The notes below the pieces were generated by a model, which saw only the letters and a program-made list of their open reading frames with translations, did no database searches and had not been told where the DNA came from. From positions 1-38,207 of the forward strand of contig JAJUGS010000004.1 of the NCBI GenBank assembly GCA_029265875.1: a stretch of DNA of 38,207 nt, in the 5' to 3' direction. This document shows positions 5,397 through 37,579 of the stretch, one piece after another (the first letter of the stretch is position 1; the number at the start of each line of letters is the position of its first letter). Source of the stretch: Prolixibacteraceae bacterium. Its GTDB lineage: Bacteria > Bacteroidota > Bacteroidia > Bacteroidales > Prolixibacteraceae. The position numbers and the translations under genes are program-made.

Positions 5397-6551
5397 ATGA
5401 CAGCAAAACAAACCAGCTGGAGCAAGCTGCTCCCCGCTTTCTTTGCCTTTATTGTAATGGGTTTTGTGGATATCATGGGAGTTGCCATCGGTTACGTGAA
5501 ACATGATTTTGGCGTATCCAATGTGATGGCGCAGTTCCTGTCAACAATGGTGTTGCTCTGGTTTTTTGTGCTGTCGGTGCCGGTGGGCATTTTGCAGGAT
5601 AAGTACGGGAAAAAGAACATGTTGATGTTAGGGATGGTGATTCAGGCGGTAGGTTTGGTATTGCCGTTTGTAAGCTATTCTTTTGAAATGATGTTTGCCT
5701 CTTTTATGTTGCTGGGAATGGGAAATACCTTTATCCAGGTTTCTGCCAACCCGTTGCTGCAGGATGTTTCGCCGGGAGATAAACTTGCCAGTTACCTGAG
5801 TACCTCGCAGTTTGTAAAAGCCATCGTTTCCATGTTGGGGCCCATCATTGCCGGAAAAGTAATGGCAACCTTGTTTGGCGATTGGAAACTGGTTTTGATT
5901 GTTTACGGAATAACTTCTATACTCGGTGCCTTGTGGTTGTTCTCCACGCCAATTCAGGAATCAAAACCCGACAGAAAACCGGCGTCCTTTGGTTCCTGTT
6001 TCGGATTATTGAAAAACCCGTTTATTGCTTTTATGGCCCTGTCAATCTTCCTGATTGTGGGTGCCGAAGTGTCCACCAATACCAATATTTCGAATGTTTT
6101 AATTTCGAAATTTGAAATATCCATTGAAAATGCGGCTTATGGTATCAGTGCCTTTTTTGCCGGCGAAACCATTTCGCGTCTGATAGGGGCAATTATTCTG
6201 AGTAAGATTAAACCACGCGTTTTTCTTTTGCTTACAACCCTTACTTCGCTGTTGGGAGTGGCGGGTGTGTTGATGGCACCTTCCTTTTATGTGGCATTGG
6301 CCGCCATTTTTATCATCGGACTCGGAGCTGGCAGTATGTTCCCGGTTATTTTTTCGCTGGCACTTGAAAAAATGCCCGATCGTGCCAACGAAATTTCAGG
6401 ATTGCTGATTATGGCTGTTTCAGGAGGTGCTTTTATTCCGCCGCTGGCTGGCTGGGCAAGCGACATTGTTTCGCCAGTTGCCAGTATCGGGGTAATTGGA
6501 ATTTGTTTCCTGTATATCCTGTGGGTTTCGTTTTATGTAAGAAAGATTTAA
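5397..6551 (+). CDS. MFS sugar transporter (FucP/NagP-like)
   Basis: A 384-residue, highly hydrophobic protein with about 12 membrane segments and no signal peptide. The loop between helices 2 and 3 has the MFS signature form (GILQDKYGKKNMLMLG, ~63-78), and a polar central loop (SKPDRKPASFG, ~186-196) separates two six-helix halves. The short length and the glycine-rich ANPLLQDVSPG segment after helix 4 fit the sugar:proton symporters of the FucP/NagP/GluP group. It is an inner-membrane importer. Its neighbours (Gfo/Idh/MocA oxidoreductase, sialidase-like protein) suggest it takes up a mono- or disaccharide released in the periplasm; which one cannot be read from the sequence. Confidence 0.85.
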   Translation: MTAKQTSWSKLLPAFFAFIVMGFVDIMGVAIGYVKHDFGVSNVMAQFLSTMVLLWFFVLSVPVGILQDKYGKKNMLMLGMVIQAVGLVLPFVSYSFEMMFASFMLLGMGNTFIQVSANPLLQDVSPGDKLASYLSTSQFVKAIVSMLGPIIAGKVMATLFGDWKLVLIVYGITSILGALWLFSTPIQESKPDRKPASFGSCFGLLKNPFIAFMALSIFLIVGAEVSTNTNISNVLISKFEISIENAAYGISAFFAGETISRLIGAIILSKIKPRVFLLLTTLTSLLGVAGVLMAPSFYVALAAIFIIGLGAGSMFPVIFSLALEKMPDRANEISGLLIMAVSGGAFIPPLAGWASDIVSPVASIGVIGICFLYILWVSFYVRKI

Positions 6552-6651: not shown

Positions 6652-7842
6652 ATGAAGAAACTATTTATAATTTTTTCCCTGTTTTTGTTGACAATCACTG
6701 TTTTTGCCCAGCAAAAAAACGTCTATAATTCAATTCTGAAGGAGGAGTTAATATTTCCCCCGCAATCAGAACATTCGCATGGCAGCAGCATTGTTGCCCT
6801 GCCCAACGGCGATTTTCTGGCGGTATGGTTCCAGGGTAGTGGCGAACGCACAGCCGACGATGTGCGGATTATGGGTGCCCGGCTCGAGAAAGGCAAAAAA
6901 GAATGGGGCAAACCCTTTGTGGCAGCCGACACGCCCGGGTTGCCCGATTGTAACCCGGTTGTTTTTCTGAACGGAAAAGGAAAGCTTTTCCTGGTTTGGA
7001 TTGCAGTGCAGGGCAACCAGTGGGAAGTGTCTATTCTTCGTACACGCACCTCAACCCATTACAACAACCCGGGAGCGCCGGTGTGGGATTGGCAGGACAA
7101 CATCCTGATCAAACCCGGAAAAGAATTTGAAGAGGAAATAGAAAAGCAATTCAAGGAAATGCCCGAATTGCAGCATGGATGGGCTGGTTATGCACCGCTT
7201 TACGACGATATGATTAAAGAGGCCAGCAAAGACAAAGTCAAACGAAGTATTGGCTGGATGACCCGCATCAAACCACTGATTCTGCAATCTGGCCGGATCA
7301 TTCTGCCATTGTATCATGATGGTTTTAACCTGTCGATTTGCGCCATTTCGGATGATGACGGCGAAACCTGGAAAGCTTCAAAACCCATTGTTGGCCGCGG
7401 GCCTATCCAACCGGCGCTTGAAGTTCGCAAAAACGGTGACATTGTGGCTTTTATGCGCGACAGTGGCGATGCTCCCGCCCGCGTTCACAAAGCCATTTCG
7501 AAAGATAATGGCGACAGCTGGAGTTATACCGTAAAAACCGATATTCCCAACGAAGCCAGCGTTGAACTGCTGAAGCTGAAAGATGGCCGCTGGGCTTTCC
7601 TGGGAAATGATATCGACGATGGCCGCTACCGCGTGGCACTAATGCTCTCGGACGACGAAGGCGAAACCTGGAAATGGAAAGAATATCTCGAAAACGACCC
7701 CAAACAGGGTGGGGGCAGTTATTCTTATCCCTGCCTTATCCAAACTGCCAATGGTTTGTTGCATATTACTTATTCATCCCGAACAGGTGAGTCAGAAAAA
7801 TCGATTAAACACGTGGTGGTTAATCCCGATAAAATCAGGTAA
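6652..7842 (+). CDS. Secreted sialidase-superfamily BNR-repeat β-propeller protein
   Basis: This 396-residue protein has an N-terminal signal peptide (cleavage after VFAQ, ~20). It carries several Asp-box (BNR) motifs: SDDDGETW (~236), SKDNGDSW (~284) and SDDEGETW (~333). Early motifs with HSHGSSIVALPNG and SGERTADDVRIMG resemble the N-terminal catalytic strand of exo-sialidase-like proteins. The fold should be a six-bladed propeller in the periplasm or outside. True sialidase activity needs an Arg triad plus Tyr/Glu, which I cannot assign by eye; many Bacteroidota homologues act on other glycosides. A second BNR protein lies at 18621-19706. Confidence 0.85.
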   Translation: MKKLFIIFSLFLLTITVFAQQKNVYNSILKEELIFPPQSEHSHGSSIVALPNGDFLAVWFQGSGERTADDVRIMGARLEKGKKEWGKPFVAADTPGLPDCNPVVFLNGKGKLFLVWIAVQGNQWEVSILRTRTSTHYNNPGAPVWDWQDNILIKPGKEFEEEIEKQFKEMPELQHGWAGYAPLYDDMIKEASKDKVKRSIGWMTRIKPLILQSGRIILPLYHDGFNLSICAISDDDGETWKASKPIVGRGPIQPALEVRKNGDIVAFMRDSGDAPARVHKAISKDNGDSWSYTVKTDIPNEASVELLKLKDGRWAFLGNDIDDGRYRVALMLSDDEGETWKWKEYLENDPKQGGGSYSYPCLIQTANGLLHITYSSRTGESEKSIKHVVVNPDKIR

Positions 7843-13593: not shown

Positions 13594-15837
13594 TTAGTTA
13601 AAAATTAAAGCCGACGGTGGCGCATCTTCCGGTGCCGAGCCCCACTGTTTGTTTGGCTTCGAACCCATTTCGAGTTCCAGTGTGGCGCCGTTCATCAGTT
13701 CATCGTGGGTAAACCAGGTTTTGGTGAGCGGCTTTCCGTTCAGTTTTGCCGACTGGATGTATTTGTTCACCACCGAACAACCGGGCGCTTTTATGGTAAA
13801 TGTTTTTCCGTTTTCGAGCTGAATTTTTACCTCTTCAAAAACCGGACTACCGATTGTATAAATTGGCAGACCTGGTGTTACCGGATAAAATCCCATCGAC
13901 GAAAAGACCACAAAAGCGCTCATGCCACCGCCATCTTCATCGCCGGGAATACCAAAAATGTTGTCTTTGAACCACACATCGAGCAGAAAACGGATGCGTT
14001 TTTGGGTTTTCCAGGGTTCGCCGGCATAATTGTACAGGTACGGTATATGAAAACTGGGTTCGTTGCCCATGGAATATTGCCCCACATTTCCGGTGGCATC
14101 GGGGAATTTGGCCCAGAATGCGTAACGGCTTCTCCCCAGTGGTTCGCGGAAAAGCTGGTCTAAAGTTTTGGTGAATTCCTCACGTCCGCCCATCAATCCG
14201 ATTAATCCCTGAATATCCTGCTGTACATGCCACTGGTAGGTGAAAGCGTTGTTTTCGTCGTAGTAATCGCGGCCGCCGGGGCCTCCGTCAAATTTCGGGT
14301 CGATTTCAATCCACTCTCCCTTTTCATTTTTAGGCCACATCAGTTTGGTTTCGGGGCGGTACAAATTGCGGTAGTTGGCAGCCTGCCCGTTGAAATATTT
14401 GTAATCATCTTCTTTGCCAAGTTCTTTGGCCAGTTGTCCCAGCGCCCAGTCGTCGTAGCTGTGCGCCAGCGTGATGGCCACACTCTGCCGTTTTTCAAAA
14501 CCGTGTACTTCAGGATACGTTTCCTTTTCATCGGGAGCCAGTGCCGGGAAAAATCCTTTTTCGCGATAAAACACATCCAGCGCGGTTTTTGGGCCGTTTC
14601 TCCAGGGTAACATGGTGGCGTCGGTGGCGTTCTTTTTCACACCTTCGTAAGCTTTCTGCACATCATAATCACGCAGGTTTTTACGGTAGGCATCCAGAAA
14701 AACGATGGTGGAATGAAAACCGTGCATGGCGGGATTGTCCATAAAAAGTAAGGGAAACTGCGGCATCCAGCCACTTTGTTCGTACATTTTTACATACGAA
14801 TTGAGCATGTCGTTTTCCTTTTTGGTATCGAGAATCATCCGCAGCGGGTGATGTGCCAGGTAGGTATCCCACACCCAGTCATCGACATAAAACGGGCGGT
14901 CGGTTTCGTGAACCTGGTGGTCGTAAGCGCTGTAATATTTCCCGTCTTCGGTGATGTCAACCATGCGTTCGTAACAGCGGTAAAGGGCCGTGTAAAAACT
15001 GCGCTTCTGCGCTTCGGTGCCCCCCTTCACCTGTATTTTTCCCAATGTTTCCTCCCAGACAGCTTTTCCATGGTCGGCCAGTTTTTCAAACTCCCAGCCA
15101 TCAATTTCGTTCTTCAGGTTCTTTTCTGCCTGCTCGGCGCTGATAAACGAAACGGCGTATTTTAACTGAACCACCGGGTTTTTGCTTTCCGAAAAATCAG
15201 CCCACAAAACGGGTTTTCCTACCGGTTGTTCAGGAGTTCCGTTTTCTTCAATCAACACTTTTGGTTCGGTGTCGAATTCAGCATAAACAAAGGCTTTCAT
15301 CCCCTGAAACTCTTCCACTCCTGTAAATACTTTGGCCGAAACAGGTTCCCATTTCCCGGTATTTACAAGATTGAAACGCAGCCGTTTTTCGCCATTTTCA
15401 GGAAAGGTAAAGCGAAAAATGGCGCTTTTATTGCCGGGAACAAATTCGGTTGTGATTTCGTCGTCGATTAAGTAGGTTGAATAGAAAAAAGGGCGTGTAA
15501 CTTCCAGTTGATGGTCGTATGTCTGGCGATTTTTCCAGGTTCTTTTTTCAGGATTTCCGGTTCCGGGCAAAACGCCAAACAACTCGCCGTTGCGGTGCGA
15601 TGCAATGGTGAGCGGAAAAAACCGGATCTGGTCGTCGACAAAATCGGCCCGCACCGGGTACATTCTTATTACCTGGTTGGGTAATTGCGCGGTTGGCCGC
15701 GTGGGTTGCAGCAAAACGCTTACATTCCCGATGGTCGGGTCAACATACTGTGTCAGCGATTCGGGCTGTTCTTTGGTTTTGCAGGAAACTAACAGAAGTG
15801 AAACGGCTGTAAAGATGATGAAGATTTGAATTTTCAT
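13594..15837 (-). CDS. GH92-family α-mannosidase-like glycoside hydrolase, lipoprotein
   Basis: This 747-residue lipoprotein has lipobox LVSC at Cys19. The mature part starts with YVDPTIGN, the usual GH92 entry. Further GH92 signatures are DWVWDTYLAHHPL (~320), GNEPSFHIPYLYNYAG (~589), PWKTQKRIR (~608) and GDEDGGGMSAF then GFYPVTPG (~628-650). GH92 enzymes are calcium-dependent exo-α-mannosidases. Here the usual GNDDCGQMSAW loop is GDEDGGGMSAF, marking a divergent subgroup whose linkage or sugar preference may differ. Its first ~90 bases, with the upstream spacer, are duplicated in inverted orientation at 23304-23393. Confidence 0.87.
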   Translation of the reverse strand: MKIQIFIIFTAVSLLLVSCKTKEQPESLTQYVDPTIGNVSVLLQPTRPTAQLPNQVIRMYPVRADFVDDQIRFFPLTIASHRNGELFGVLPGTGNPEKRTWKNRQTYDHQLEVTRPFFYSTYLIDDEITTEFVPGNKSAIFRFTFPENGEKRLRFNLVNTGKWEPVSAKVFTGVEEFQGMKAFVYAEFDTEPKVLIEENGTPEQPVGKPVLWADFSESKNPVVQLKYAVSFISAEQAEKNLKNEIDGWEFEKLADHGKAVWEETLGKIQVKGGTEAQKRSFYTALYRCYERMVDITEDGKYYSAYDHQVHETDRPFYVDDWVWDTYLAHHPLRMILDTKKENDMLNSYVKMYEQSGWMPQFPLLFMDNPAMHGFHSTIVFLDAYRKNLRDYDVQKAYEGVKKNATDATMLPWRNGPKTALDVFYREKGFFPALAPDEKETYPEVHGFEKRQSVAITLAHSYDDWALGQLAKELGKEDDYKYFNGQAANYRNLYRPETKLMWPKNEKGEWIEIDPKFDGGPGGRDYYDENNAFTYQWHVQQDIQGLIGLMGGREEFTKTLDQLFREPLGRSRYAFWAKFPDATGNVGQYSMGNEPSFHIPYLYNYAGEPWKTQKRIRFLLDVWFKDNIFGIPGDEDGGGMSAFVVFSSMGFYPVTPGLPIYTIGSPVFEEVKIQLENGKTFTIKAPGCSVVNKYIQSAKLNGKPLTKTWFTHDELMNGATLELEMGSKPNKQWGSAPEDAPPSALIFN

Positions 15838-18620: not shown

Positions 18621-19706
18621 TTAATTATTGGGCCATTTGCCATTCACAATTGGTTTTGTCTGAATTTTTGCCGGGTCAATCACCACATGTTTTATCAGTT
18701 TACGGTTCCAGGTGTAAGTGATGTGAACCATCCCGTCGTTTGCCTGAATAACCGCGGGATAAGAATATTCACTGTCTTTGTCGGGATCATTTTCAAGTAA
18801 AACAGCCGCTTTCCAGTTGAATCCGTCCTCAGAAACTGCCACATTCAGCACATTTCTGTCACCCCACGTTTCAGAACTTACAATATGGTTGTAAACCAGT
18901 AAATGTCGTCCATCCCGGAGTGTTACGGCATCGATGCCTGAATTCGGGTTCGGCAATTGTATCGGTTCCAGTGCGGTCCATGTTTTTCCGTTGTCATCCG
19001 ACCAGGTTGAAAGAACTTTTGTACCCCGGCTTCTGCACAATGCTTGTAGCCTTCCGTTTTTGTGGATCAGAATGGTTGGCTGAATAGCGCCCACTTCTTT
19101 TCCGTCGTTCAGGCTGGGTGTGCGTTCCCATGTTTTGCCAAAATCAGGGGTGATTTCGAAATGTACCTGCCAGCCGGTAAGTTCGGTGCTCGATGGGCAA
19201 AGCAGGTCGCCATTTTTCAGCAAAACAGGTTTATTTTTGATGGGGCCCCAGATTTCTTCGGGCAAACGAACCGGTTGCGACCATGATTTCCCGTTATCAG
19301 CCGAGGTGATTAATTCTCCCCACCAGTCGCTGCAGTTGGGGCCTTCTTTATAATAGAGCTGGATTTCTTTCCCGGTATTAAAAAGCACCGGGTTCCAGGT
19401 TGGGTAGCGCAGGTTTTTGTGCTGAATTCCGTTGGCAACTTCCACCGGAATGGTCCATTTCCCGTTTTCAAACCGGCTTACCCAGATTCCCACATCCGGG
19501 TGTTTTTCGTACTGTCCTCCAAACCAGGCAGCAATCAGCCCGTCTTTTGTCTGTTCAATGGTTGAAGCATGGCAACTCGGGAATTTTACATCTTCTTTCT
19601 GATAAATAAACTCCGATTTTACAACGGCATTTTCTCCGGTAAATGGTTTTTGCGACCAACCGGTTGCAACAAAAAGGAGAAATGCAATAACAACTGACCG
19701 TTTCAT
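18621..19706 (-). CDS. Secreted sialidase-superfamily BNR-repeat β-propeller protein
   Basis: I place the start at the ATG at 19706, which gives a signal peptide at once (MKRSVVIAFLLFVATGWSQ); the longer frame to 19730 adds eight unlikely residues. The protein is 361 residues. Asp-box motifs SADNGKSW, TPDFGKTW, SDDNGKTW and SEDGFNW mark a six-bladed sialidase-type propeller. The AAWFGGQYEKHPDVGIWVSR region and SYPAVIQANDGMVHITYTW ending belong to a Bacteroidota subgroup often annotated exo-sialidase but not shown to act on sialic acid. It is transcribed with the ChbG/YdjC deacetylase; a terminator separates it from the lyase upstream. Confidence 0.85.
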   Translation of the reverse strand: MKRSVVIAFLLFVATGWSQKPFTGENAVVKSEFIYQKEDVKFPSCHASTIEQTKDGLIAAWFGGQYEKHPDVGIWVSRFENGKWTIPVEVANGIQHKNLRYPTWNPVLFNTGKEIQLYYKEGPNCSDWWGELITSADNGKSWSQPVRLPEEIWGPIKNKPVLLKNGDLLCPSSTELTGWQVHFEITPDFGKTWERTPSLNDGKEVGAIQPTILIHKNGRLQALCRSRGTKVLSTWSDDNGKTWTALEPIQLPNPNSGIDAVTLRDGRHLLVYNHIVSSETWGDRNVLNVAVSEDGFNWKAAVLLENDPDKDSEYSYPAVIQANDGMVHITYTWNRKLIKHVVIDPAKIQTKPIVNGKWPNN

Positions 19707-19793
19707 AAAATTAGTATCAATGTTTAACAATGGTTTTAAATTTCCTGCTTATGTAAAAGCTGAATATAAATTTTTAGTTGGTATTTGTCAAGC

Positions 19794-19928: not shown

Positions 19929-20849
19929 TTATCGGGCCTGAACAGTTTCCGGCATCTCCATTTCTTTCAGATGCTGCTGAATTTGCTGCTGTTTTGCATC
20001 ATGAAACTTTCTGAACGGATAAGCCACATAATCGTTGCAAATTCCCATTGCATGAAGGGCCGATTTGATAGTTTTGATGTATTTTGAAGAATAGGCCCCC
20101 ACATTGTAGATTTTTTCCTCAATCAACAGCAATTTCTTTTTCAGCCTATCAATTCGTTCAAAATCTTTTACCAGTGAAGCTTCATACAATTCCACGAAAA
20201 CGGATGGGAAAAGATTTGCCCCGCCGGCTACAGCTCCATGTCCACCGGCAATAATGGTTTCAGGAATGAATATTTCACTTCCGGCAATTACCGCAAACTC
20301 CGGAGAACTTTTGAATTCTTCGGCAAGAGCAAGCAGATAAGGAAGATTTCCTGAACTGTCCTTAATTCCAATGGCTCCGAGCTCTTTGGCTTTTTTTACT
20401 GTATTAATTGTCATGTGCATTTTGGTACACGATGGCATATTGTACAACATAAATGGCAACGGAAGAAGCGGTACAAGTTCCTCGAGATAAATAATAAACT
20501 CATTTTGCGAGATTGGCAGGTAATAAGGCGTGGAAACAACCAGTGCATCAACACCGGCGTTTTTTGCAGCTTCGGCAATTTCAAGCGACCCCTCAAAACA
20601 GGTGTCGGTAATACCAGCCACAACCGGAACCCTGCCTTTCGTAAATTCACAAACACGGTCCAGAAATTCCTTCCTGATTTCATAGCTCAGATTGGTGGCT
20701 TCACCGGTGGTCCCTAAGGCAAAAATTCCATGAACACCTCCATTCAGAATATGATTGATAAGATTTTTTAAACCTGCAGTATCGAGTTTGGTATTGCTGA
20801 CCAACGGAGTTACTATTGGTGGTATTATCCCTTTTAAAGGCAGCTTCAT
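19929..20849 (-). CDS. Dihydrodipicolinate synthase / N-acetylneuraminate lyase family aldolase
   Basis: The ATG at 20849 is preferred over the frame opening at 20966, because the barrel begins directly with MKLPLKGIIPPIVTP. The 306-residue (βα)8 enzyme carries GTTGEAT (46-52, substrate carboxylate binding), Tyr136 in LYNMPS and the Schiff-base Lys163 in GIKDSSGN. Members cleave or form 2-keto acids such as N-acetylneuraminate, 2-keto-3-deoxysugar acids or dihydrodipicolinate. Next to sialidase-like and deacetylase genes a catabolic 2-keto-3-deoxysugar lyase is likelier than lysine synthesis. It is divergent from an AraC regulator 167 bases away, its probable controller. Confidence 0.85.
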   Translation of the reverse strand: MKLPLKGIIPPIVTPLVSNTKLDTAGLKNLINHILNGGVHGIFALGTTGEATNLSYEIRKEFLDRVCEFTKGRVPVVAGITDTCFEGSLEIAEAAKNAGVDALVVSTPYYLPISQNEFIIYLEELVPLLPLPFMLYNMPSCTKMHMTINTVKKAKELGAIGIKDSSGNLPYLLALAEEFKSSPEFAVIAGSEIFIPETIIAGGHGAVAGGANLFPSVFVELYEASLVKDFERIDRLKKKLLLIEEKIYNVGAYSSKYIKTIKSALHAMGICNDYVAYPFRKFHDAKQQQIQQHLKEMEMPETVQAR

Positions 20850-20983
20850 AAAATTTATATTTTGAAGATTATTTCTGATGTTATACTCTGTGTTGACAAA
20901 GGAAAACCAATGGCACCTTATATGCTTATTGTAATTTGTTTTTTTTACATTGAATTTTGACCGCATTATTTCAGTTTTCCTTT

Positions 20984-27453: not shown

Positions 27454-28473
27454 ATGAAGAAAACATCATTAAGCGACATTGCACGCCAGCTTGGAGTATC
27501 AAAAACACTTGTTTCATTGGTTTTAAATGGAAAAGCCAAAGAACACCGGATAAGTGATGAAATGAGCAACAAGGTAAAAAAACTTGCAAAAGAGTTAAAT
27601 TATAAGCCCAATCAAATTGCAAAAGGACTGAGAACCGGGCGTACCAATACAATAGGACTGATAATTGCCGACATTGCTAACCCGTTTTTTGGAAAACTCG
27701 GACGCGAAATTGAAAAAGAAGCAGCCGCTCATGGCTACCGGATTGTTTTTTGCAGCTCCGACGAAAATCCGGACAATTCACAAAAACAGATCGAAATGCT
27801 TCAGCAAGGCCAGGTTGATGGTTTTATTATTGCACCGCCAGCCGGTAGCGAAAACCAGATTCTTTCACTCAAAAGAAATAAAATTCCATTTGTACTTATC
27901 GACAGAAACTTTCCGGATATTGACACAAACTACATCGTGGTCGATAACATACAGGCCGCTTTTGAAGCCACCGACCACCTGGTCAAACAAGGATACAGCA
28001 AAATTGCCTGTGTTACCCTGAATGTACATCTTAACAACATGAACCAACGGGTCCTGGGATACAAACAGGCATTAATAGAAAATAACATTCCGGTGGATGA
28101 AGAGCTCATAAAAATGATGCCTTTCACCCACGAAAAGGATGATATCGCGGAGGCGGTTAAACAGCTCGAACCGGGCAACAAATCAAAGGTGGAAGCCATT
28201 TTTTTTGCCACCAGCAAGCTCGGTATTATGGGCCTTGAAACTTTGCATTCATTGGGTTTGCACATCCCCGGTGATATTGCTGTTGTTAGTTTTGATGACC
28301 CGGATGCTTACAAAATCAGTCAGCCACCGGTTTCTGCGATTGCCCAGCCTTTGCAGGAAATTGGCCGTGAATCGGTAAAAGTCCTGCTTGACATGATTCA
28401 TGATCGTAATGCTGAAACAAAAAAAATCGTATTGAAGGCGAAATTTATCCCCCGCAAATCAAGTGGCTTTTAA
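27454..28473 (+). CDS. LacI-family transcriptional repressor
   Basis: This 339-residue protein has the LacI helix-turn-helix at residues ~4-25 (SLSDIARQLGVSKTLVSLVL), the hinge helix region NYKPNQIAKGLRTG (~50-63) and a type-I periplasmic-binding-like sensor domain (GLIIADIANPFFGKLGREIE ... VVSFDDPDAY, ~278). It should bind a sugar or sugar phosphate and repress its own operon: the ROK and SIS genes follow after 42 and 12 bases. The neighbours make a hexose, mannose derivative or heptose-like sugar phosphate plausible as inducer. Confidence 0.92.
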   Translation: MKKTSLSDIARQLGVSKTLVSLVLNGKAKEHRISDEMSNKVKKLAKELNYKPNQIAKGLRTGRTNTIGLIIADIANPFFGKLGREIEKEAAAHGYRIVFCSSDENPDNSQKQIEMLQQGQVDGFIIAPPAGSENQILSLKRNKIPFVLIDRNFPDIDTNYIVVDNIQAAFEATDHLVKQGYSKIACVTLNVHLNNMNQRVLGYKQALIENNIPVDEELIKMMPFTHEKDDIAEAVKQLEPGNKSKVEAIFFATSKLGIMGLETLHSLGLHIPGDIAVVSFDDPDAYKISQPPVSAIAQPLQEIGRESVKVLLDMIHDRNAETKKIVLKAKFIPRKSSGF

Positions 28474-28514: not shown

Positions 28515-29495
28515 ATGGATATCACAAAAAGCTATTATTTGGGAATCGATATTGGCGGCACCAAATGTGCTGTGGTTGCCGGCGACAGTGAGTTTAATAT
28601 TTACGATAAAATACAGTTCGATACCAGAACAGCAGAAAGAGGCTGGCACGAAGTTTTTGAAGATTTTTTTGCAAACATCAACTCAATCTTTTTGAAATAT
28701 CCCAAAGAAAATCTGAAAGCAATCGGAATCAGTTGCGGGGGCCCGCTTGATTCAAAAAAAGGAATTATTTATTCGCCTCCCAATTTGCCGGGATGGGACA
28801 ATGTGCCGATTACAAGGATTTTTACTGAACGTTTCGGAGTTCCTGTTTCGATTCAGAACGATGCCAACGCCTGTGCATTGGCCGAATGGCTCATGGGCGC
28901 CGGAAAAGGAACACAGAACATGATATTCCTGACCTTTGGCACCGGGATGGGTTCAGGGTTGATTCTGAACGGTAAATTATACGCCGGAACCAATGATTTG
29001 GGTGGCGAAGTCGGTCATATCAGGCTGGCAGATGATGGCCCCGTAGGTTTTGGAAAAGCAGGCTCCTTCGAAGGGTTTTGCAGCGGTGGGGGTATTGCTC
29101 AACTGGCTGCTTCGTTTGTTATCAATAAACTGAAACAAGGTATAAAAGTTAATTTTTGCGATAATATTGAATCGGCACGGAAACTGACTGCCAAAATTGT
29201 GGCCGAAGCGGCTTTGACCGGTGATGCCGATGCTCTCGAAATTATCAGGATTTCAGGCGAATACCTGGGGCGGGGACTTTCCATCCTGATCGACATCCTG
29301 AATCCGGAATGCATTGTAATCGGGAGTATTTATGCCCGAAACCAGAATTTATTCAAACCTCATATTGAAAGAATAATCGAACGGGAAGCCATTCCTTCGG
29401 CGGTGCAGGTTTGTACCATAAAACCTGCCTTGCTGGGCGATAGCATCGGCGATTACGCCGCTCTTTGCGTTGCTCTTTACGAAAATCAGTTTTAA
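28515..29495 (+). CDS. ROK-family sugar kinase lacking the usual zinc cysteines
   Basis: A 326-residue ASKHA-fold kinase: LGIDIGGTKCAVV (~9-21, phosphate 1), ISCGGPLD (~74), QNDANACALAEW (~114, catalytic Asp), FGTGMGSGLILNG (~137) and GGEVGHIRL (~158). In most ROK kinases a CxCGxxGCxE zinc cluster follows the GH motif; here the segment reads GPVGFGKAGSFEGFCSG, so the cysteine cluster is missing. It probably phosphorylates a hexose, N-acetylhexosamine or similar sugar in the cytoplasm. It is the second gene of the LacI operon, 42 bases after the regulator and 12 before the isomerase. Confidence 0.85.
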   Translation: MDITKSYYLGIDIGGTKCAVVAGDSEFNIYDKIQFDTRTAERGWHEVFEDFFANINSIFLKYPKENLKAIGISCGGPLDSKKGIIYSPPNLPGWDNVPITRIFTERFGVPVSIQNDANACALAEWLMGAGKGTQNMIFLTFGTGMGSGLILNGKLYAGTNDLGGEVGHIRLADDGPVGFGKAGSFEGFCSGGGIAQLAASFVINKLKQGIKVNFCDNIESARKLTAKIVAEAALTGDADALEIIRISGEYLGRGLSILIDILNPECIVIGSIYARNQNLFKPHIERIIEREAIPSAVQVCTIKPALLGDSIGDYAALCVALYENQF

Positions 29496-29507: not shown

Positions 29508-30146
29508 ATGAAGGGAGAAACTATTTTAACCGATTTGCTAAATCGATACAGTGAATTGCAACCCCTAAAAGAACAGATTGTTGCCGCAACCGAAATAATG
29601 ATTGACACCTACAAAAACGGAGGAAAAGTTTTGGTTTGCGGAAATGGTGGAAGTTGCTCCGATGCCGACCACATTGTGGGGGAGCTGATGAAGAGTTTTG
29701 AAGGACGCCGTCCGCTGTCAAAAGAGCTGCAGGAAAAACTTATCAACCTATCACCAGAAACCGGAAAAATGTTAGCCGAAAAACTGCAACAGGGGTTACC
29801 GGCTATTTCGTTAACAGTCCACCAGTCTTTGATAACGGCCATTGCCAACGACATCAGCGGCGAGGTGATTTATGCGCAGCAAGTGGTTGGCTGGGGAAAC
29901 AAAGGCGATGTGCTGATTGGCCTGAGCACTTCAGGAAACTCGCAGAATGTGATTGATGCCATGATTGTAGCCCGGGCAAAAGGACTCAAAACAATCGGGA
30001 TGACCGGCGAAACCGGTGGAAAAATGCGCGAATGGAGCGACGTTCTGTTAAATGTTCCTGAATGCCGTACCGCTTATGTACAGGAGTTGCATCTTCCTGT
30101 ATATCACGCAATTTGTATGATGGTGGAAATCGAATTTTTCGGATAG
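29508..30146 (+). CDS. SIS-domain sugar isomerase, GmhA/phosphoheptose-isomerase-like
   Basis: This 212-residue protein has a GmhA layout: an N-terminal helix, VLVCGNGGSCSDADHIVGELMK (~43-64), an insert (residues ~65-100), ISLTVHQSLITAIANDISGE, then GDVLIGLSTSGNSQNVIDA (~139, phosphosugar-binding SIS loop) and a C-terminal ECRTAYVQELHLPVYHAICMMVE with the catalytic Glu/His region. GmhA converts sedoheptulose 7-phosphate to D-glycero-D-manno-heptose 7-phosphate; this paralogue may use that or another ketose phosphate. It closes the LacI-ROK-SIS operon, and a terminator-like hairpin follows. Confidence 0.85.
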   Translation: MKGETILTDLLNRYSELQPLKEQIVAATEIMIDTYKNGGKVLVCGNGGSCSDADHIVGELMKSFEGRRPLSKELQEKLINLSPETGKMLAEKLQQGLPAISLTVHQSLITAIANDISGEVIYAQQVVGWGNKGDVLIGLSTSGNSQNVIDAMIVARAKGLKTIGMTGETGGKMREWSDVLLNVPECRTAYVQELHLPVYHAICMMVEIEFFG

Positions 30147-30557: not shown

Positions 30558-33107
30558 ATGAATAACTACAATAGAAAATCATCGCTTACCCGCAGACAAT
30601 TTATCAATCGAACTGCGCTTGGTACTGCTGCATTGGCAGTCGCACCTGCCGGAGCACTTTTTGCCCGGCAAACATCCTGGCCTGAAAATGCAAAAGACTT
30701 AACTTTTCACATGATTGGCCATGCCCACATCGACCCGGTTTGGCTGTGGCCCTGGACAGAGGGAGTTTCCATCGTTCACAGTACGTTTCAGTCGGCATTG
30801 GACAGGATGAACGAAAATCCTGACTTCTGTTTTATCAGCAGTTCGGCCCAGTTTTATCATTGGGTGGCTGAAAACGACCCCGAAATGATGGCAAAAATCA
30901 AAAAACGGGTGGAAGAAGGCAGATGGTGCATCATGGGTGGCTGGTGGGTGGAACCCGATGTAAATATTCCTTCAGGCGAAGCAATGGTTCGTCAGGGTTT
31001 GTATGGCCAGCAAACTTTCCAGAAACTTTTTGGCAGAAAGGCAACCATCGGTTTTAACCCAGATTCGTTCGGACACACTTCTACTTTGCCGCAGATTATC
31101 AAGAAACAGGGCATGGACAAATACATGTTTATGCGTCCCGGCCCGCACGAAAAAACTTTGCCAACCGACCTTTTCTGGTGGCAGGGTGCCGATGGTACCA
31201 AAGTGCTTACCTATCGGATTCAGGAAAGTTATAACGACACCACCCTGAATGGCGACCGGATGAAAAGGGTGGCCGGCAAGGCGACCGAACAACCCATGAA
31301 AGACTTTATGTACTTTTTTGGCGCGGGCGATCATGGCGGCGGACCCACCAAAGAGAACATGAAAACTATAACGAAATTTCAAACCGAACAGGGAGCGCCA
31401 GTCATCAAATACAGCACTCCTGAAAGATATTTCAAAAAGATTGAAAGTGACAAAAATCTGAACCTGCCCACAGTAAACGACGATTTGCAACACCATGCAG
31501 TGGGTTGTTATACAGCCGAATCGGAAATAAAAAAGGGAAATCGCCACTCGGAAGCAGCGCTGGTCACTGCCGAAAAAATTGTAACCATCGGCGCAAAAGC
31601 CTGGGGGGCAAAATACCCGAAAAACGAACTGACCACAGCATGGCAAAGGGTGTTGTTTCTGCAGTTTCACGATAGCATGGCCGGCACATCACTGGTGGAA
31701 CATTCGCAGGCCGCCCGCGAAGGGTATGGTTTTGCGCTCGATACCGCCCATCAGGCAACTACCATGGCGGTACAGAAACTCGAATGGCAGATTGCTGCCG
31801 AAGACCCGGAATCTCAGTACCTCGTGGTGTTCAATCCACACGCCTGGGAAGTGGAGGAAAATATTGAATACGATTTTAACTGGGGTACCATGCACAAAGG
31901 TTCGCGGGTGGAAGATGAAACCGGGAACCCGCTCCCACACCAATGGACAGCCGGTTCAACAGAAACAGGCAGCCGCAGAAAACTGATTGTGAGGGCAAAA
32001 ATACCCGCCATGGGATACCGCCAGTTCAGGCTGCATGACGGAGATTCGGGGATGGCACCCACGCAGGTGAAAGCTGAAGAAAACAGGCTCGAAAACGAAT
32101 TCTACAGGCTGAGTTTTTCATCTGACGGCACCCTGAGTATTTTTGATAAAGAGCGCGGAAAGGAAGTTTTTGCCGGCGGACAAACCGGATGCAGAGCTTT
32201 GATTATTGACGACCCGAGCGATACCTGGAGCCACGACATCAAAACCTTCGATAAAGTAATTGGTCATTTCGAAAGGGCCGACATCAAAATACTTGAAAAT
32301 GGTCCTCTTCGTGCAACATTAAGAGTGTCCACAATTTACGGCAATTCAGCTTTGACCATCGATTGGTCGGTGGTGGCAGGTTCGCGCCACATTGACGCCA
32401 AAGTAACGCTCAACTGGCACGAGCACCTGAAAATGCTGAAGTTCTCGTTCCCTGTCGATAGCGAAAATCCGGTGCCCACTTACGAAACACCTTACGGGCA
32501 TATTGTCCGCGAGGCAAACGGCAACGAAGACCCGGGTCAGTGCTGGATTGACATTGCCGGGGCACAGGGTGGAAAATTGTTCGGTCTGTCAGTTTTAAAT
32601 GATGCAAAATATGGGTACAGTGTTCATGGAAACGACCTCCGGATTTCGGTGGCAAGGGCCGCTGTTTATGCACACCACAACCCGAAAGTGCTCGATATGA
32701 ATGCCGAGCATTACTGGATGGACCAGGGAATCCAGACTTTCAGGATGAAACTGGTGCCGCACACCGGAAGCTGGAAAGAAAACAACATTGCCCGGATCAC
32801 AGAAGAATTTATGGCTCCCGCAGTTGTCCTATACCAGGGAATACATAGCGGCAAACTGCCCAAATCGGGTTCCTTCCTTTCGTGCGACAAACCCAATGTA
32901 ATTGTTACATCTCTAAAGCAAGCCGAAGGAAATGACGATATCATCATTCGTTGTGTTGAAACAAGTGGGATTGCCACCGATGCAAAACTCGACCTGAAAT
33001 TTGCCGGTACCCAATGGGATGGCAGTTTTGGCCCTTGCGAAATCAAAACCCTCAGGATGAACAGTAAATCAAAACAAATCAAAGAGGTGAATCTTCTGGA
33101 ATCCTGA
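30558..33107 (+). CDS. Tat-exported GH38-family α-mannosidase
   Basis: This 849-residue protein starts with a twin-arginine signal (SLTRRQFINRTALG, ~9-22). GH38 hallmarks follow: GHAHIDPVWLWPW (~53-65, zinc-binding His and Asp), the GGWWVEPDVNIPSGEA region (~133) and FNPDSFGH (~166) with the nucleophile Asp ~169. The long C-terminal β-sandwich half is intact to the expected length. GH38 enzymes retain configuration and cut α-mannosides using zinc. Tat export is unusual for this mostly cytoplasmic or Sec-exported family and suggests folding with metal before export. It is followed after 43 bases by the kinase-phosphatase fusion, so mannose-type sugars may feed that pathway. Confidence 0.9.
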   Translation: MNNYNRKSSLTRRQFINRTALGTAALAVAPAGALFARQTSWPENAKDLTFHMIGHAHIDPVWLWPWTEGVSIVHSTFQSALDRMNENPDFCFISSSAQFYHWVAENDPEMMAKIKKRVEEGRWCIMGGWWVEPDVNIPSGEAMVRQGLYGQQTFQKLFGRKATIGFNPDSFGHTSTLPQIIKKQGMDKYMFMRPGPHEKTLPTDLFWWQGADGTKVLTYRIQESYNDTTLNGDRMKRVAGKATEQPMKDFMYFFGAGDHGGGPTKENMKTITKFQTEQGAPVIKYSTPERYFKKIESDKNLNLPTVNDDLQHHAVGCYTAESEIKKGNRHSEAALVTAEKIVTIGAKAWGAKYPKNELTTAWQRVLFLQFHDSMAGTSLVEHSQAAREGYGFALDTAHQATTMAVQKLEWQIAAEDPESQYLVVFNPHAWEVEENIEYDFNWGTMHKGSRVEDETGNPLPHQWTAGSTETGSRRKLIVRAKIPAMGYRQFRLHDGDSGMAPTQVKAEENRLENEFYRLSFSSDGTLSIFDKERGKEVFAGGQTGCRALIIDDPSDTWSHDIKTFDKVIGHFERADIKILENGPLRATLRVSTIYGNSALTIDWSVVAGSRHIDAKVTLNWHEHLKMLKFSFPVDSENPVPTYETPYGHIVREANGNEDPGQCWIDIAGAQGGKLFGLSVLNDAKYGYSVHGNDLRISVARAAVYAHHNPKVLDMNAEHYWMDQGIQTFRMKLVPHTGSWKENNIARITEEFMAPAVVLYQGIHSGKLPKSGSFLSCDKPNVIVTSLKQAEGNDDIIIRCVETSGIATDAKLDLKFAGTQWDGSFGPCEIKTLRMNSKSKQIKEVNLLES

Positions 33108-33150: not shown

Positions 33151-35055
33151 GTGAAAAAGGAACAACTTCAAAAAATACTGAATGACATCAGCTCGGTGAA
33201 AATTGCTGTTTTAGGTGATTTTTGCCTCGACGCCTATTGGTTTATCGACGAATCGAAAAGTGAAATTTCCATCGAAACCGGACAGATGACAAAACCGGTT
33301 AAACAACAACGCTACTCTTTGGGTGGTGCCGGAAACGTAACCAATAACCTCACTGCTTTGGGAGTAAAAGATGTTCGCGCTTTTGGAGTTATCGGCCCCG
33401 ATCCGTTTGGGTACGAAATGGTGAAAGTGATGAAGCAAAACGGCATCAACCCCAAAAACCTGTTGGTTCAGGAAAAAGACTGGTCAACGCATGTTTATAC
33501 AAAACCGTATGTGGGCGATACCGAGCAAAGCCGCATCGACTTCGGAAATTTCAACAAACTTTCGAAACATACAGCCGACAAGCTGATTAACAACCTCATT
33601 ACTGAAATTCCGGAGGTGGATATCATCATCATCAACCAGCAGGTTTTATCAGGAATCCATACCGAATATTTCAGAAAGGAAATAACAAAAGTGATTCAGC
33701 GTTTTCAGGATAAAAAATTTATTGTTGACAGCCGGAATTACAGTGCATCGTACGAAGGAGCATACCGGAAAATGAACGATACAGAGGCTGCCATACTGGG
33801 CGGTTATAAAAAAGAGGCGACCGATGTGGTTTTGTATTCCGAAGTAAAGGAAGCTGCCCTGAAACTATTTGAAAAATTTGGGAAACCCCTGTTTATCACA
33901 CGAGGTGCGAGAGGGTCGTTAATTGTTAGCGAAAACGGAATTACCGATATTCATGGCTTGATGATTATTTCGAAAGTGGATCCGGTTGGTGCAGGCGACA
34001 GTTATCTGGCTGGTGCCGCTTCGGCGCTGGCCGCGGGTTACAGCATGGAAATCGCTGCCGAAATAGGGTCTTATGTGGCGGGTGTTACCGTGCAGAAATT
34101 ATTCCAGACCGGTACGGCAAGTCCTGAAGAAATTATGAGCATTGGTGCTGACCCCGATTTTGTTTACAGTCCCGAGCTGGCTGAAGATATTCGTCACGCC
34201 AATTACTGGAACGGCACCGAAATTGAAATCATCAACAAATGGCCTCAGCCACTGAATATTAAACATGCCATTTTCGACCACGACGGTACCATTTCAACCC
34301 TTCGCGAAGGTTGGGAGCACATCATGCAGCCCATGATGATGAAGGCCATTCTGGGCGACCATTTTCAGGATGCCGACGAAGCACTTTATCATAAAGTACA
34401 TACCCGCGTGGTTGATTTTATCGATAAAACAACAGGAATTCAGACACTTGTGCAGATGAAAGGGCTGGTTGAACTGGTGAAGGAATTTGGTTTGGTCCCG
34501 GCTGATAAAATTCTGGATGAATTTGGCTACAAAGCCATTTACAATGAAGAGCTGCTGAAAATGGTGAAAGTGCGCGAAGCCAAACTCACACGTGGAGAAC
34601 TGGCGTTGGAAGATTTTACCCTTAAAAATGCGGTTTTGCTGCTCGAAAAATTGTACAAAGCCGGTGTAAAATTATACCTCGCCAGCGGTACCGATGAGGA
34701 AGATGTTAAAAACGAAGCCCGCATTTTGGGTTACGACCACCTTTTTGAGGGCGGAATTTACGGTGCGGTGGGCGATGTAAACAAAGAGGCCAAGAAAATT
34801 GTGCTCGACAGGATTCTGAACACCATTGGCGATTCAGGAAACGGACAGGTGGCTGCTTTTGGCGATGGCCCCGTTGAAATCCGCGAAACACGCAAAAGGG
34901 GCGGAATCACAATCGGTATTGCCAGCAACGAACTCAAACGCTACAGTTTGAACGAAAGTAAACGCTCGCGTCTTATCAAAGCCGGCGCCGATGTGATTGT
35001 TCCCGATTATTCGCAACTGCCAGAACTGCTCGAATTGTTGAATGTAAAAAGCTAA
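33151..35055 (+). CDS. PfkB (HldE-like) kinase fused to a HAD phosphatase
   Basis: A GTG start gives 634 residues; the ATG at 33141 is followed at once by a stop. Residues ~1-330 form a ribokinase-fold domain closest in pattern to the heptose-7-phosphate kinase half of HldE: VLGDFCLDAYWFI (~21), SLGGAGNVTNNL, then DPVGAGDSYLAG with the catalytic Asp283. Residues ~370-634 form a HAD domain: IFDHDGT (nucleophile Asp376, acid Asp378), LASGTDEED (motif II), a motif III Lys near 548 and FGDGPVEIRE (~570-579). The HldE nucleotidyltransferase half is absent. Consecutive phosphorylation and dephosphorylation of one sugar phosphate (for example 7-phosphate to bisphosphate to 1-phosphate) would explain the fusion. 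This is inferred, not shown. Confidence 0.87.
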   Translation: MKKEQLQKILNDISSVKIAVLGDFCLDAYWFIDESKSEISIETGQMTKPVKQQRYSLGGAGNVTNNLTALGVKDVRAFGVIGPDPFGYEMVKVMKQNGINPKNLLVQEKDWSTHVYTKPYVGDTEQSRIDFGNFNKLSKHTADKLINNLITEIPEVDIIIINQQVLSGIHTEYFRKEITKVIQRFQDKKFIVDSRNYSASYEGAYRKMNDTEAAILGGYKKEATDVVLYSEVKEAALKLFEKFGKPLFITRGARGSLIVSENGITDIHGLMIISKVDPVGAGDSYLAGAASALAAGYSMEIAAEIGSYVAGVTVQKLFQTGTASPEEIMSIGADPDFVYSPELAEDIRHANYWNGTEIEIINKWPQPLNIKHAIFDHDGTISTLREGWEHIMQPMMMKAILGDHFQDADEALYHKVHTRVVDFIDKTTGIQTLVQMKGLVELVKEFGLVPADKILDEFGYKAIYNEELLKMVKVREAKLTRGELALEDFTLKNAVLLLEKLYKAGVKLYLASGTDEEDVKNEARILGYDHLFEGGIYGAVGDVNKEAKKIVLDRILNTIGDSGNGQVAAFGDGPVEIRETRKRGGITIGIASNELKRYSLNESKRSRLIKAGADVIVPDYSQLPELLELLNVKS

Positions 35056-35225: not shown

Positions 35226-36329
35226 ATGCCTTATCCAAAATTCGACCGTAACCTGCTCGATGTTAAACAACTGGCAAACCGCAAAAACAAGGTTTACATC
35301 GAAAGAGACCATATTCCGGTAACAGAAAAACCAAAAAACCTTTCAGAAAAGGGAGTCAGCCTCATTGAAAAAACGGCTGAAAGAATAAAAAAAGCCCGTT
35401 CGCTGAACCGTTCGGTGATGCTCACGTTTGGCGCACACACCATTAAAAACGGAATGGCTCCGACGCTTATCGCGCTGATTAAAGAAGGCTGGGTGACCCA
35501 TCTGGCCACAAACGGCGCCGGAATTATCCACGACTGGGAGTTTGCCTATCAGGGAAAATCAAGCGAAGATGTGCGTGAAAATGTCAATCTCGGGCAATTC
35601 GGAATTTGGGACGACACCGGGTTTTACATCAACCTCGCGCTGGTTGCCGGCGCTTACGAAGGACTGGGTTATGGCGAATCGGTGGGGAAAATGATTCATA
35701 CCGAGGGTTTGGATATTCCTGAACTTTCGGTTTTGTATGCCACCGCCCGCCAGAAAATGGAAACAGGACCGGTCACTGCTGCCGCTGCCATCGATTTCGC
35801 AGGCGTCATCAAACATTTCGGTTTGACGCCTGGAAGAATGAACATTCCACACCCGCACAAAAAATTTTCGGTACAGGCAAATGCTTATGAATTGGGTATT
35901 CCGTTTACCAGTCATCCCATGTTTGGGCACGATATTATTTATAACCACCCGATGAACCACGGCGCTGCCATTGGCCGCACCGCTGAAAACGATTTTCTGG
36001 CTTTTGCCAAAAGCGTGAGCAACCTCGATGACGGTGTTTACCTTTCGGTGGGTTCGGCAGTAATGTCACCCATGGTTTTCGAGAAATCGCTTTCGATGTC
36101 GCAGAACCTCGAAATACAGCGGGGCAGTCACATCGACAGGCATTACATGCTGATTGTGGATTTGGCGGAAGCCGAGTGGGACTGGTCAAAAGATGGCGAA
36201 CCACCCATGGACAACCCGGCTTATTACCTGCGTTACTGCAAAACATTTAACCGCATGGGCGGCGAAATGCACTACCTCACCGCCGATAACCGCGACTTTC
36301 TACTGGCCTTGTACCAGCAATTGCACTAA
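35226..36329 (+). CDS. Uncharacterised protein with a probable deoxyhypusine-synthase-like NAD-binding fold
   Basis: This 367-residue cytoplasmic protein has no export signal. Its central region follows the pattern of deoxyhypusine-synthase-fold enzymes: SVMLTFGAHTIKNGMAPTL, then LIKEGWVTHLATNGAGIIHD (a dinucleotide-binding-type strand followed by His-Asp), then a glycine-rich stretch and, near the C-terminus, GIPFTSHPMFGHDII, LSVGSAVMSPMVFE and an acidic DLAEAEWDWS segment. I do not see the conserved active-site Lys region of true deoxyhypusine synthase, and bacteria lack eIF5A, so the substrate must differ. It follows the kinase-phosphatase by 170 bases with no clear terminator and probably acts in the same pathway. 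Fold assignment is by eye only. Confidence 0.6.
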   Translation: MPYPKFDRNLLDVKQLANRKNKVYIERDHIPVTEKPKNLSEKGVSLIEKTAERIKKARSLNRSVMLTFGAHTIKNGMAPTLIALIKEGWVTHLATNGAGIIHDWEFAYQGKSSEDVRENVNLGQFGIWDDTGFYINLALVAGAYEGLGYGESVGKMIHTEGLDIPELSVLYATARQKMETGPVTAAAAIDFAGVIKHFGLTPGRMNIPHPHKKFSVQANAYELGIPFTSHPMFGHDIIYNHPMNHGAAIGRTAENDFLAFAKSVSNLDDGVYLSVGSAVMSPMVFEKSLSMSQNLEIQRGSHIDRHYMLIVDLAEAEWDWSKDGEPPMDNPAYYLRYCKTFNRMGGEMHYLTADNRDFLLALYQQLH

Positions 36330-36644: not shown

Positions 36645-37579
36645 TCAAGTTGTAATATTAAGCTGTTCTCTTACTTCAGCAATGGTTTTTCCTGTATCAG
36701 TTTTCCAGGAAGTCCATCCATTTACTGTTTTTCTCTCGCTACCAGCATCCTGAATTCCAGCAAGTGCGGCATAACTTGGACTAGAATAAATCTGACCCAT
36801 TAATTGAAGAGAACCATCTTCTAAAATAATAGCCGTATATTTCTTTTGTGCTCCGCCATTTCGCGGTTTATAAATCATAGTCAGTTTTTGATTTACTGAT
36901 AGTAACCTAGAATTTATCAGGTCAAGAATACCGATATCTGAACGAGAGATTCTTCCCACTTTATTATTAGAAATACTTATTTCTTCTTCCGTATCTAATT
37001 CAGGTTTAAATTCTTCAGGAAATTCATATGCAATATTTTTAGAATTATTAAAATCGACATATTTTGTTATTACCCAAAGCTTAACATTATATTTTAAAGT
37101 TCTTGCCCATTCTTTTAAGTCGTTTGTAATGGCGTCAATTGGAACTCCAACGATTGGTTCTTTATCTAAAATCTCAGCTAAATGTTTTCGAATATTTATT
37201 TCCTTAATACCTAATTCATTAAATTTTTCTCTGGCCGTTTCATCTTTTTGATAAATATCCACGGCCAGATCTTCAAGTGTTTTCTTGGTTATATTTTGTT
37301 GAGAAGCAATCATTTGTTTTGTAACCTGCGGAGCAATATGCGACCAAACATTGTGCTGTATTAGTTCAGCTTCAACTAAATACCACTTTTTTGCAGCTAA
37401 ATCAATAGCAAAACCGTCAGGGATTGTTCCTACTCCATCACTCGTTTTTATTAGTGCTTTGGGTAGATATATTGAACTTGGCCCAAAAATATATTCATAA
37501 TTGTTATGACAACATTCTCAATTTCACTTTCATTTATAAATGGAGCTTTTATAAATTTTTTGTCAGTTGTAATTATCAT
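36645..37579 (-). pseudogene. Frameshifted DUF4357 nuclease-like protein
   Basis: The intact frame from 37313 down covers 222 residues ending in a DUF4357 domain (GQIYSSPSYAALAGIQDAG ... TVNGWTSWKTDTGKTIAEV), a domain linked to restriction and defence proteins. Upstream, an ATG at 37579 opens TTDKKFIKAPFINESEIENVV. It must shift frame near 37500-37510 to continue as NYEYIFGPSSIYLPKALIK and then DGFAIDLAAKKWYLVEAEL, a pattern like a PD-(D/E)XK nuclease core, which joins the lower frame. One missing base explains the break. The gene is clearly more AT-rich than its neighbours, which suggests horizontal transfer. A short product from an internal ATG remains possible. Confidence 0.78.

Follow-up and report, generated by a model that had tools for sequence, protein, structure and literature searches.

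The window analyzed here, a 38,207-nucleotide stretch of contig JAJUGS010000004.1 from a Prolixibacteraceae bacterium, encodes a protein in which an HldA-like PfkB kinase is joined to a HAD phosphatase whose active site is intact, within a gene cluster that also carries a GSU2086-family gene. Our favored interpretation, to which we give a probability a little short of even, is that the fusion functions as a two-step enzyme, moving a phosphate to a new position on a manno-configured sugar and passing the product to the GSU2086 protein. What was computed is the identity of the domains, the intactness of their motifs, an ancestry shared with split neighboring genes and a phyletic pattern in common with GSU2086; from these we infer the substrate (heptose or mannose series), the phosphate positions, the order of the steps and any handover, or channelling, between the sites.

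A preliminary description of the sequence had reported a kinase and a phosphatase in one 634-residue chain. The open reading frame does lie exactly at 33151-35055 (+), opens with GTG, encodes 634 amino acids without an internal stop, and carries both Pfam domains over their cut-offs: PfkB (PF00294) at residues 37-316 (E 5.6e-31, 108.4 bits versus a cut-off of 25.8) and HAD Hydrolase (PF00702) at residues 370-577 (E 2.6e-10). A nucleotidyltransferase domain was absent, TIGR02199 being unmatched in the NCBIfam search, and the chain thus lacks the RfaE domain II that marks the bifunctional HldE. Neither Pfam nor NCBIfam revealed a regulatory domain. Homologue searches found further PfkB and HAD fusions, and we aligned 29 full-length examples from Bacteroidota and Spirochaetota that were 38-88% identical. 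Their origin in independent records ruled out an assembly or frame artefact, and a phage origin was rejected when no match was found among 50,697 phage records.

Table 1. Coordinates in the window of the fusion gene, its domains and associated genes.
Feature	Position	Strand	Basis
LacI-family regulator, at the head of the cluster	27454..28473	+	PF00356/PF13377
ROK-family sugar kinase	28515..29495	+	PF00480, E 2e-52; position conserved
GmhA-like SIS isomerase of the long form, which carries an insertion	29508..30146	+	TIGR00441, 167.6 bits; 42% to E. coli GmhA
GH38 alpha-mannosidase, between isomerase and fusion	30558..33107	+	PF01074, E 2e-70
Whole kinase-HAD fusion gene	33151..35055	+	Open reading frame; 29-row alignment of fusions
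HldA-like PfkB kinase domain, N-terminal, residues 1 to about 335	33151..34155	+	Pfam, NCBIfam, fold match
HAD phosphatase domain, C-terminal, predicted helical (C1-type) cap, residues about 358-634	34222..35052	+	PF00702, motifs, predicted helices
GSU2086-family protein	35226..36329	+	NF052581, 337.9 bits; NAD-binding-type fold
GH92	13594-15837		71% identical to relatives' GH92
MFS gene	5397-6551		54% identical to relatives' counterpart

The kinase half contains the motifs GGAGN (58-62), NDTE (209-212, the NxxE motif) and GAGD (280-283); the last is invariant and, with the Pfam score, places this half among the PfkB carbohydrate kinases. Its best NCBIfam model was rfaE_dom_I (TIGR02198), at 128.8 bits against the HldA equivalog cut-off of 345. 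That cut-off is strict for this group, since the host's own HldA scores just 304 bits, yet the gap for the fusion kinase is large. In a fold search with the full-length fusion model, where the matches listed were kinases only, the closest solved structure was HldA 4e84 (Z 36.4, rmsd 2.9, 307 residues aligned), followed by families with Z near 30. Fructose- and tagatose-phosphate kinases are also among the PfkB kinases of this fold. Likely substrate positions differ: DSR (193-195) of the fusion aligns with DPKG of E. coli HldE, and K118 with R of HldE; because of these replacements the substrate could be a hexose instead of a heptose.

The HAD half carries DHDGT (376-380), SGT (512-514), K548 and GDGPVE (571-576). 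The fourth motif reads GDxxxE and not the commoner GDxxxD, with E576 invariant. D376/D378, S512, K548 and D572/E576, which span motifs I-IV, were identical in the 29 fusions, in keeping with the earlier statement that all catalytic motifs are intact. Across both halves, catalytic positions were invariant in 29/29 fusions apart from four conservative exceptions (S for T380 in one sequence, S for T514 in two, and A for G59 in one). In the predicted structure of the full-length protein (mean pLDDT 85.9, pTM 0.64), four long helices (389-404, 410-426, 433-446 and 457-480) lie between the motif I strand (372-376) and the motif II strand (507-511), and on this model residues 389-480 form a C1-type cap. 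Each domain is fairly well predicted, and the pTM leaves it uncertain how the two active sites are placed relative to each other.

GmhB is not known to have such a helical cap. The fusion did not match the GmhB model TIGR00213 in the NCBIfam search, BLASTP of the HAD half against E. coli GmhB gave E 0.12, a level at which similarity is not detectable, and together with the four-helix cap these results ruled out a GmhB identity. The preliminary description had set the fusion against the usual arrangement of HldE with a separate GmhB. Its picture of an HldA-type kinase joined to a HAD with an intact active site stands, but the HAD is not a relocated GmhB.

Near-full-length homologues that were 73-88% identical occurred in 11 of 60 relatives' genomes, with one more at 47%, and a genome-wide scan recovered 21 fusion loci (49-88% identical). 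Further fused copies were found in other Bacteroidota families and in Spirochaetota. Against the nearest relative, L021, dN/dS was 0.063/1.22 (about 0.05) for the kinase half and 0.082/1.96 (about 0.04) for the HAD half, and both halves are under purifying selection. A degenerate HAD half was ruled out by this low ratio and the invariant motifs. Among distant members the HAD half was more conserved (about 53%) than the kinase half (about 40%).

Kinase and HAD are separate, close-by genes in three genomes: the Chloroflexota plasmid CP069395, in the order HAD, GSU2086, kinase, SIS, and G358 and G601, in the order SIS, HAD, kinase, GSU2086. We built separate trees for the two halves from 19 fused and 3 split sequences. 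In the kinase tree a branch separated the 19 fused sequences (91/87) from the 3 split ones (77/75), with HldA-type kinases outside; in the HAD tree the corresponding values were 100/100 and 100/100. Some end branches were long, and the placement of L124, L075 and L078 was unsure. The trees are compatible, each with one fused clade, so that a single fusion event would be the simplest history, with one fission as a possible alternative. Because of the single fused clade, the adjacency of the split homologues and a common phyletic pattern, the two halves very probably work in one pathway.

To the latter pattern we applied a presence/absence count over 247 genomes of Spirochaetota. The HAD family was present in 8 of them and GSU2086 in 14, and all 8 HAD genomes were among the 14 (P about 1e-11 if genomes were independent; they are related, and the figure is a guide only). 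In G500 the fusion, GSU2086 and the long SIS are all present on three contigs, and the association between fusion and GSU2086 therefore does not rest on adjacency alone. The pattern has exceptions: in G250, which has the fusion, GSU2086 was not matched at 1e-10; in G407 and G399 long-form GSU2086 occurs and the HAD does not; and at L037, L038, L076 and L077 no GSU2086 gene adjoins the fusion.

The cluster in the window runs LacI, ROK kinase, GmhA-like SIS, GH38, fusion, GSU2086. GH38 was found in 13 of the fetched loci, several of which had GH92 or MFS genes alongside it or substituting for it, and in relatives' loci it is accompanied or replaced by genes for GH92, MFS, SSF, AGE epimerase and Gfo/Idh/MocA proteins. 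In Spirochaetota, the phylum of G356, the fusion neighbors in G580 are LacI, GSU2086, AGE epimerase, probable sugar importer genes (by eye), ROK and SIS, and those in G584 and G565 are LacI, GSU2086 and ROK. Given these mannosidases, transporters and epimerase, the setting is one of sugar uptake and glycan breakdown, not of lipopolysaccharide assembly. A promoter scan of the cluster gave a result at chance level.

Several other features of these regions were recorded. The window also contains BNR-repeat (sialidase-like) proteins, GH92 and a DHDPS/NanA-family aldolase (6652-7842, 13594-15837, 18621-19730 and 19929-20966), so that the wider region may serve the breakdown of a sialylated or mannose-rich glycan. 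A 200-residue open reading frame at 23304-23906 matches the C-terminal part of an alpha-L-rhamnosidase only and is probably a remnant or a frame break, and a RAMA-domain (restriction adenine methylase associated) protein lies on the opposite strand directly downstream of the cluster (36645-37313). In G043, the fusion, ROK, SIS and GSU2086 genes (L072:4491-10619) adjoin, in place of mannosidases, a CehA/McbA metallohydrolase and a beta-propeller protein that weakly matches acid phosphatase/phospholipase C. A second copy of the cluster in that genome (L073:5441-6831), with a kinase of 147 residues (internal stop) and a GSU2086 of 127, is probably decayed.

The SIS isomerase shares 42% identity with E. 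coli GmhA, and its best PDB matches are all GmhA. It reached 167.6 bits with TIGR00441, short of the cut-off of 209.45, in a match that is broken in two by an insertion of about 30 residues. It retains the H/E/Q/H zinc-ligand positions, which in Neisseria GmhA are H61/E65/Q175/H183 (PMC5387315); H/D/E/H stands at these positions in Solidesulfovibrio and the split systems. In the ROK kinase an ExGH-like stretch, GGEVGH, is retained, and the usual zinc-binding cysteine cluster seems by eye to be missing.

The downstream protein belongs to the GSU2086 family (NF052581, 337.9 bits versus a cut-off of 250). In fold it resembled the part of AgrE that is an ornithine cyclodeaminase (Z 18.4 over 216 aligned residues, 3.4 A) and also deoxyhypusine synthase (Z 17.7 over 244 aligned residues, 3.7 A). 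Both of those enzymes transfer hydride onto NAD, and we infer from the modeled resemblance that the GSU2086 protein would bind NAD. Proteins of this family adjoin HldA-like kinases and SIS isomerases in degradative and biosynthetic loci alike (window 35226-36329; L124:10462-13543). A shorter form occurs without a kinase-HAD homologue in Bacteroidota genomes (L060-L070, for example L062:5016-7916); in L062, the sole such locus annotated by family, it is near a GT9 heptosyltransferase-like gene and adjoins a DUF3108 gene.

In the pathway that we propose, the ROK kinase, the GmhA-like isomerase or both would supply a sugar 6- or 7-phosphate, from sugars provided by alpha-mannosidases or importers and under control of the LacI regulator. 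The HldA-like half would phosphorylate it, most likely at the anomeric O-1, to a sugar bisphosphate, and the capped HAD half would then take off the terminal phosphate, leaving a sugar 1-phosphate with its ring locked and side chain free for NAD-dependent oxidation or epimerisation by the GSU2086-family enzyme. HldA phosphorylates the anomeric oxygen of heptose 7-phosphate, after which GmhB takes off the 7-phosphate; we propose anomeric phosphorylation here because HldA is both the nearest fold and the nearest NCBIfam model of the kinase. For these two steps the fusion offers a kinase of the right type and an unrelated phosphatase that could carry out the latter. Transferring the phosphate to C-1 from the opposite end of the sugar would cost one ATP, and would make sense if the next enzyme, which would meet a locked ring and a freed side chain, is NAD-dependent.

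Counted against phosphate relocation are the kinase score far below the HldA cut-off, the exchange of DSR for DPKG, and the genomes and loci in which GSU2086 is missing or not adjacent. Nor is it evident what a degradative locus would do with a sugar 1-phosphate, and an AGE epimerase with a ROK kinase could alone suffice for mannose. It is possible, though we think it distinctly less probable than relocation itself, that an undescribed manno-sugar pathway is made up of the ROK kinase, the GmhA-like isomerase, the fusion and the GSU2086 protein, in which moving the phosphate to C-1 would let an NAD enzyme with the deoxyhypusine synthase fold act on the side chain, possibly for salvage of heptose from lipopolysaccharide or another glycan.

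The main rival to phosphate relocation, to which we give perhaps one chance in four, assigns the two halves to different intermediates of one catabolic pathway, fused for co-expression and not as consecutive steps: the kinase product would be a ketose bisphosphate destined for aldol cleavage, whereas the HAD would clear a side or later phosphate. The degradative context of transporters, GH38/GH92 and AGE epimerase, the aldolase gene (deoC) in the Chloroflexota operon, and the PfkB fold shared with fructose- and tagatose-phosphate kinases are consistent with this, but no aldolase is conserved beside the fusion among the annotated neighbor clusters, and the kinase is nearer HldA than the phosphofructokinases.

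We consider it improbable that the fusion is an ordinary replacement for HldA and GmhB in ADP-heptose synthesis for lipopolysaccharide. The kinase is HldA-like and the isomerase GmhA-like, a GT9-like gene is close by in L102 (sequence start only), and a GSU2086 relative adjoins the GT9 heptosyltransferase-like gene in L062. However, the host has a separate HldA (L075), a GmhB match over the cut-off (172.3 bits) and a nucleotidyltransferase match (TIGR02199) of 178.4 bits, just under the cut-off of 181.5. The separate HldA ruled out the fusion as the host's only heptose kinase; since all three matches lie elsewhere in the genome, the fusion kinase is a second heptose-kinase-like enzyme and not the lipopolysaccharide heptose enzyme. 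Furthermore, fusion-bearing G058 (99% complete), G356, G580 and G601 gave no match to RfaE domain II, the fusion is found in a minority of 61 relatives in which HldA-like kinases are near universal, and the HAD is unlike GmhB.

Less probable still is a HAD half that works as a phosphomutase, or hydrolyzes some unrelated metabolite, instead of being a sugar phosphatase. C1-capped HADs include mutases and dehalogenases, and profile matches to solved structures were weak and to assorted HADs (best 3sd7, E 1.9e-6), but this domain is fused to, and co-occurs with, a sugar kinase. We regard as least likely a regulatory pair like PFK-2/FBPase-2, with the kinase making and the HAD destroying a sugar bisphosphate signal at one position; opposing activities in one conserved chain would suit it, but the split homologues are separate operon genes beside metabolic enzymes and the chain lacks a detected regulatory domain.

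Searches of open-access papers on GSU2086, PfkB-HAD fusions and related subjects found nothing about this protein or module, and no open-access paper was found on heptose breakdown. The results add HAD to the fusion partners of HldA-type kinases, join four gene families whose roles are uncertain in a single unit that can be tested, and give a functional setting to the GSU2086 family, named by NCBI after a locus tag only. They also caution that kinases annotated as RfaE or HldA need not make ADP-heptose.

Among known systems, the kinase of HldA and HldE shares with the fusion its fold, the GAGD and NxxE motifs and a GmhA-like isomerase as partner, but identity over the aligned chain is 24%, the score is 128.8 bits against 345, DSR stands for DPKG near the substrate site, and a HAD is joined in place of any nucleotidyltransferase. 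GmhB resembles the HAD half in its HAD superfamily chemistry and, if our proposal is right, in its step in the reaction order, but differs in showing no detectable sequence similarity and in lacking the four-helix cap. In Solidesulfovibrio pDCAR1 a GSU2086 protein likewise adjoins an HldA-like kinase and a SIS isomerase; that kinase, however, carries an N-terminal RfaE domain II, the reverse of the HldE order, instead of a C-terminal HAD, and its locus lies among sugar-biosynthesis genes, unlike the degradative loci of the fusion. Chloroflexota plas-ZRK has all four homologues (HAD, GSU2086, kinase and SIS) adjacent in an operon that includes a sugar ABC importer, but there kinase and HAD are separate genes and the SIS zinc-ligand positions are H/D/E/H, not H/E/Q/H.
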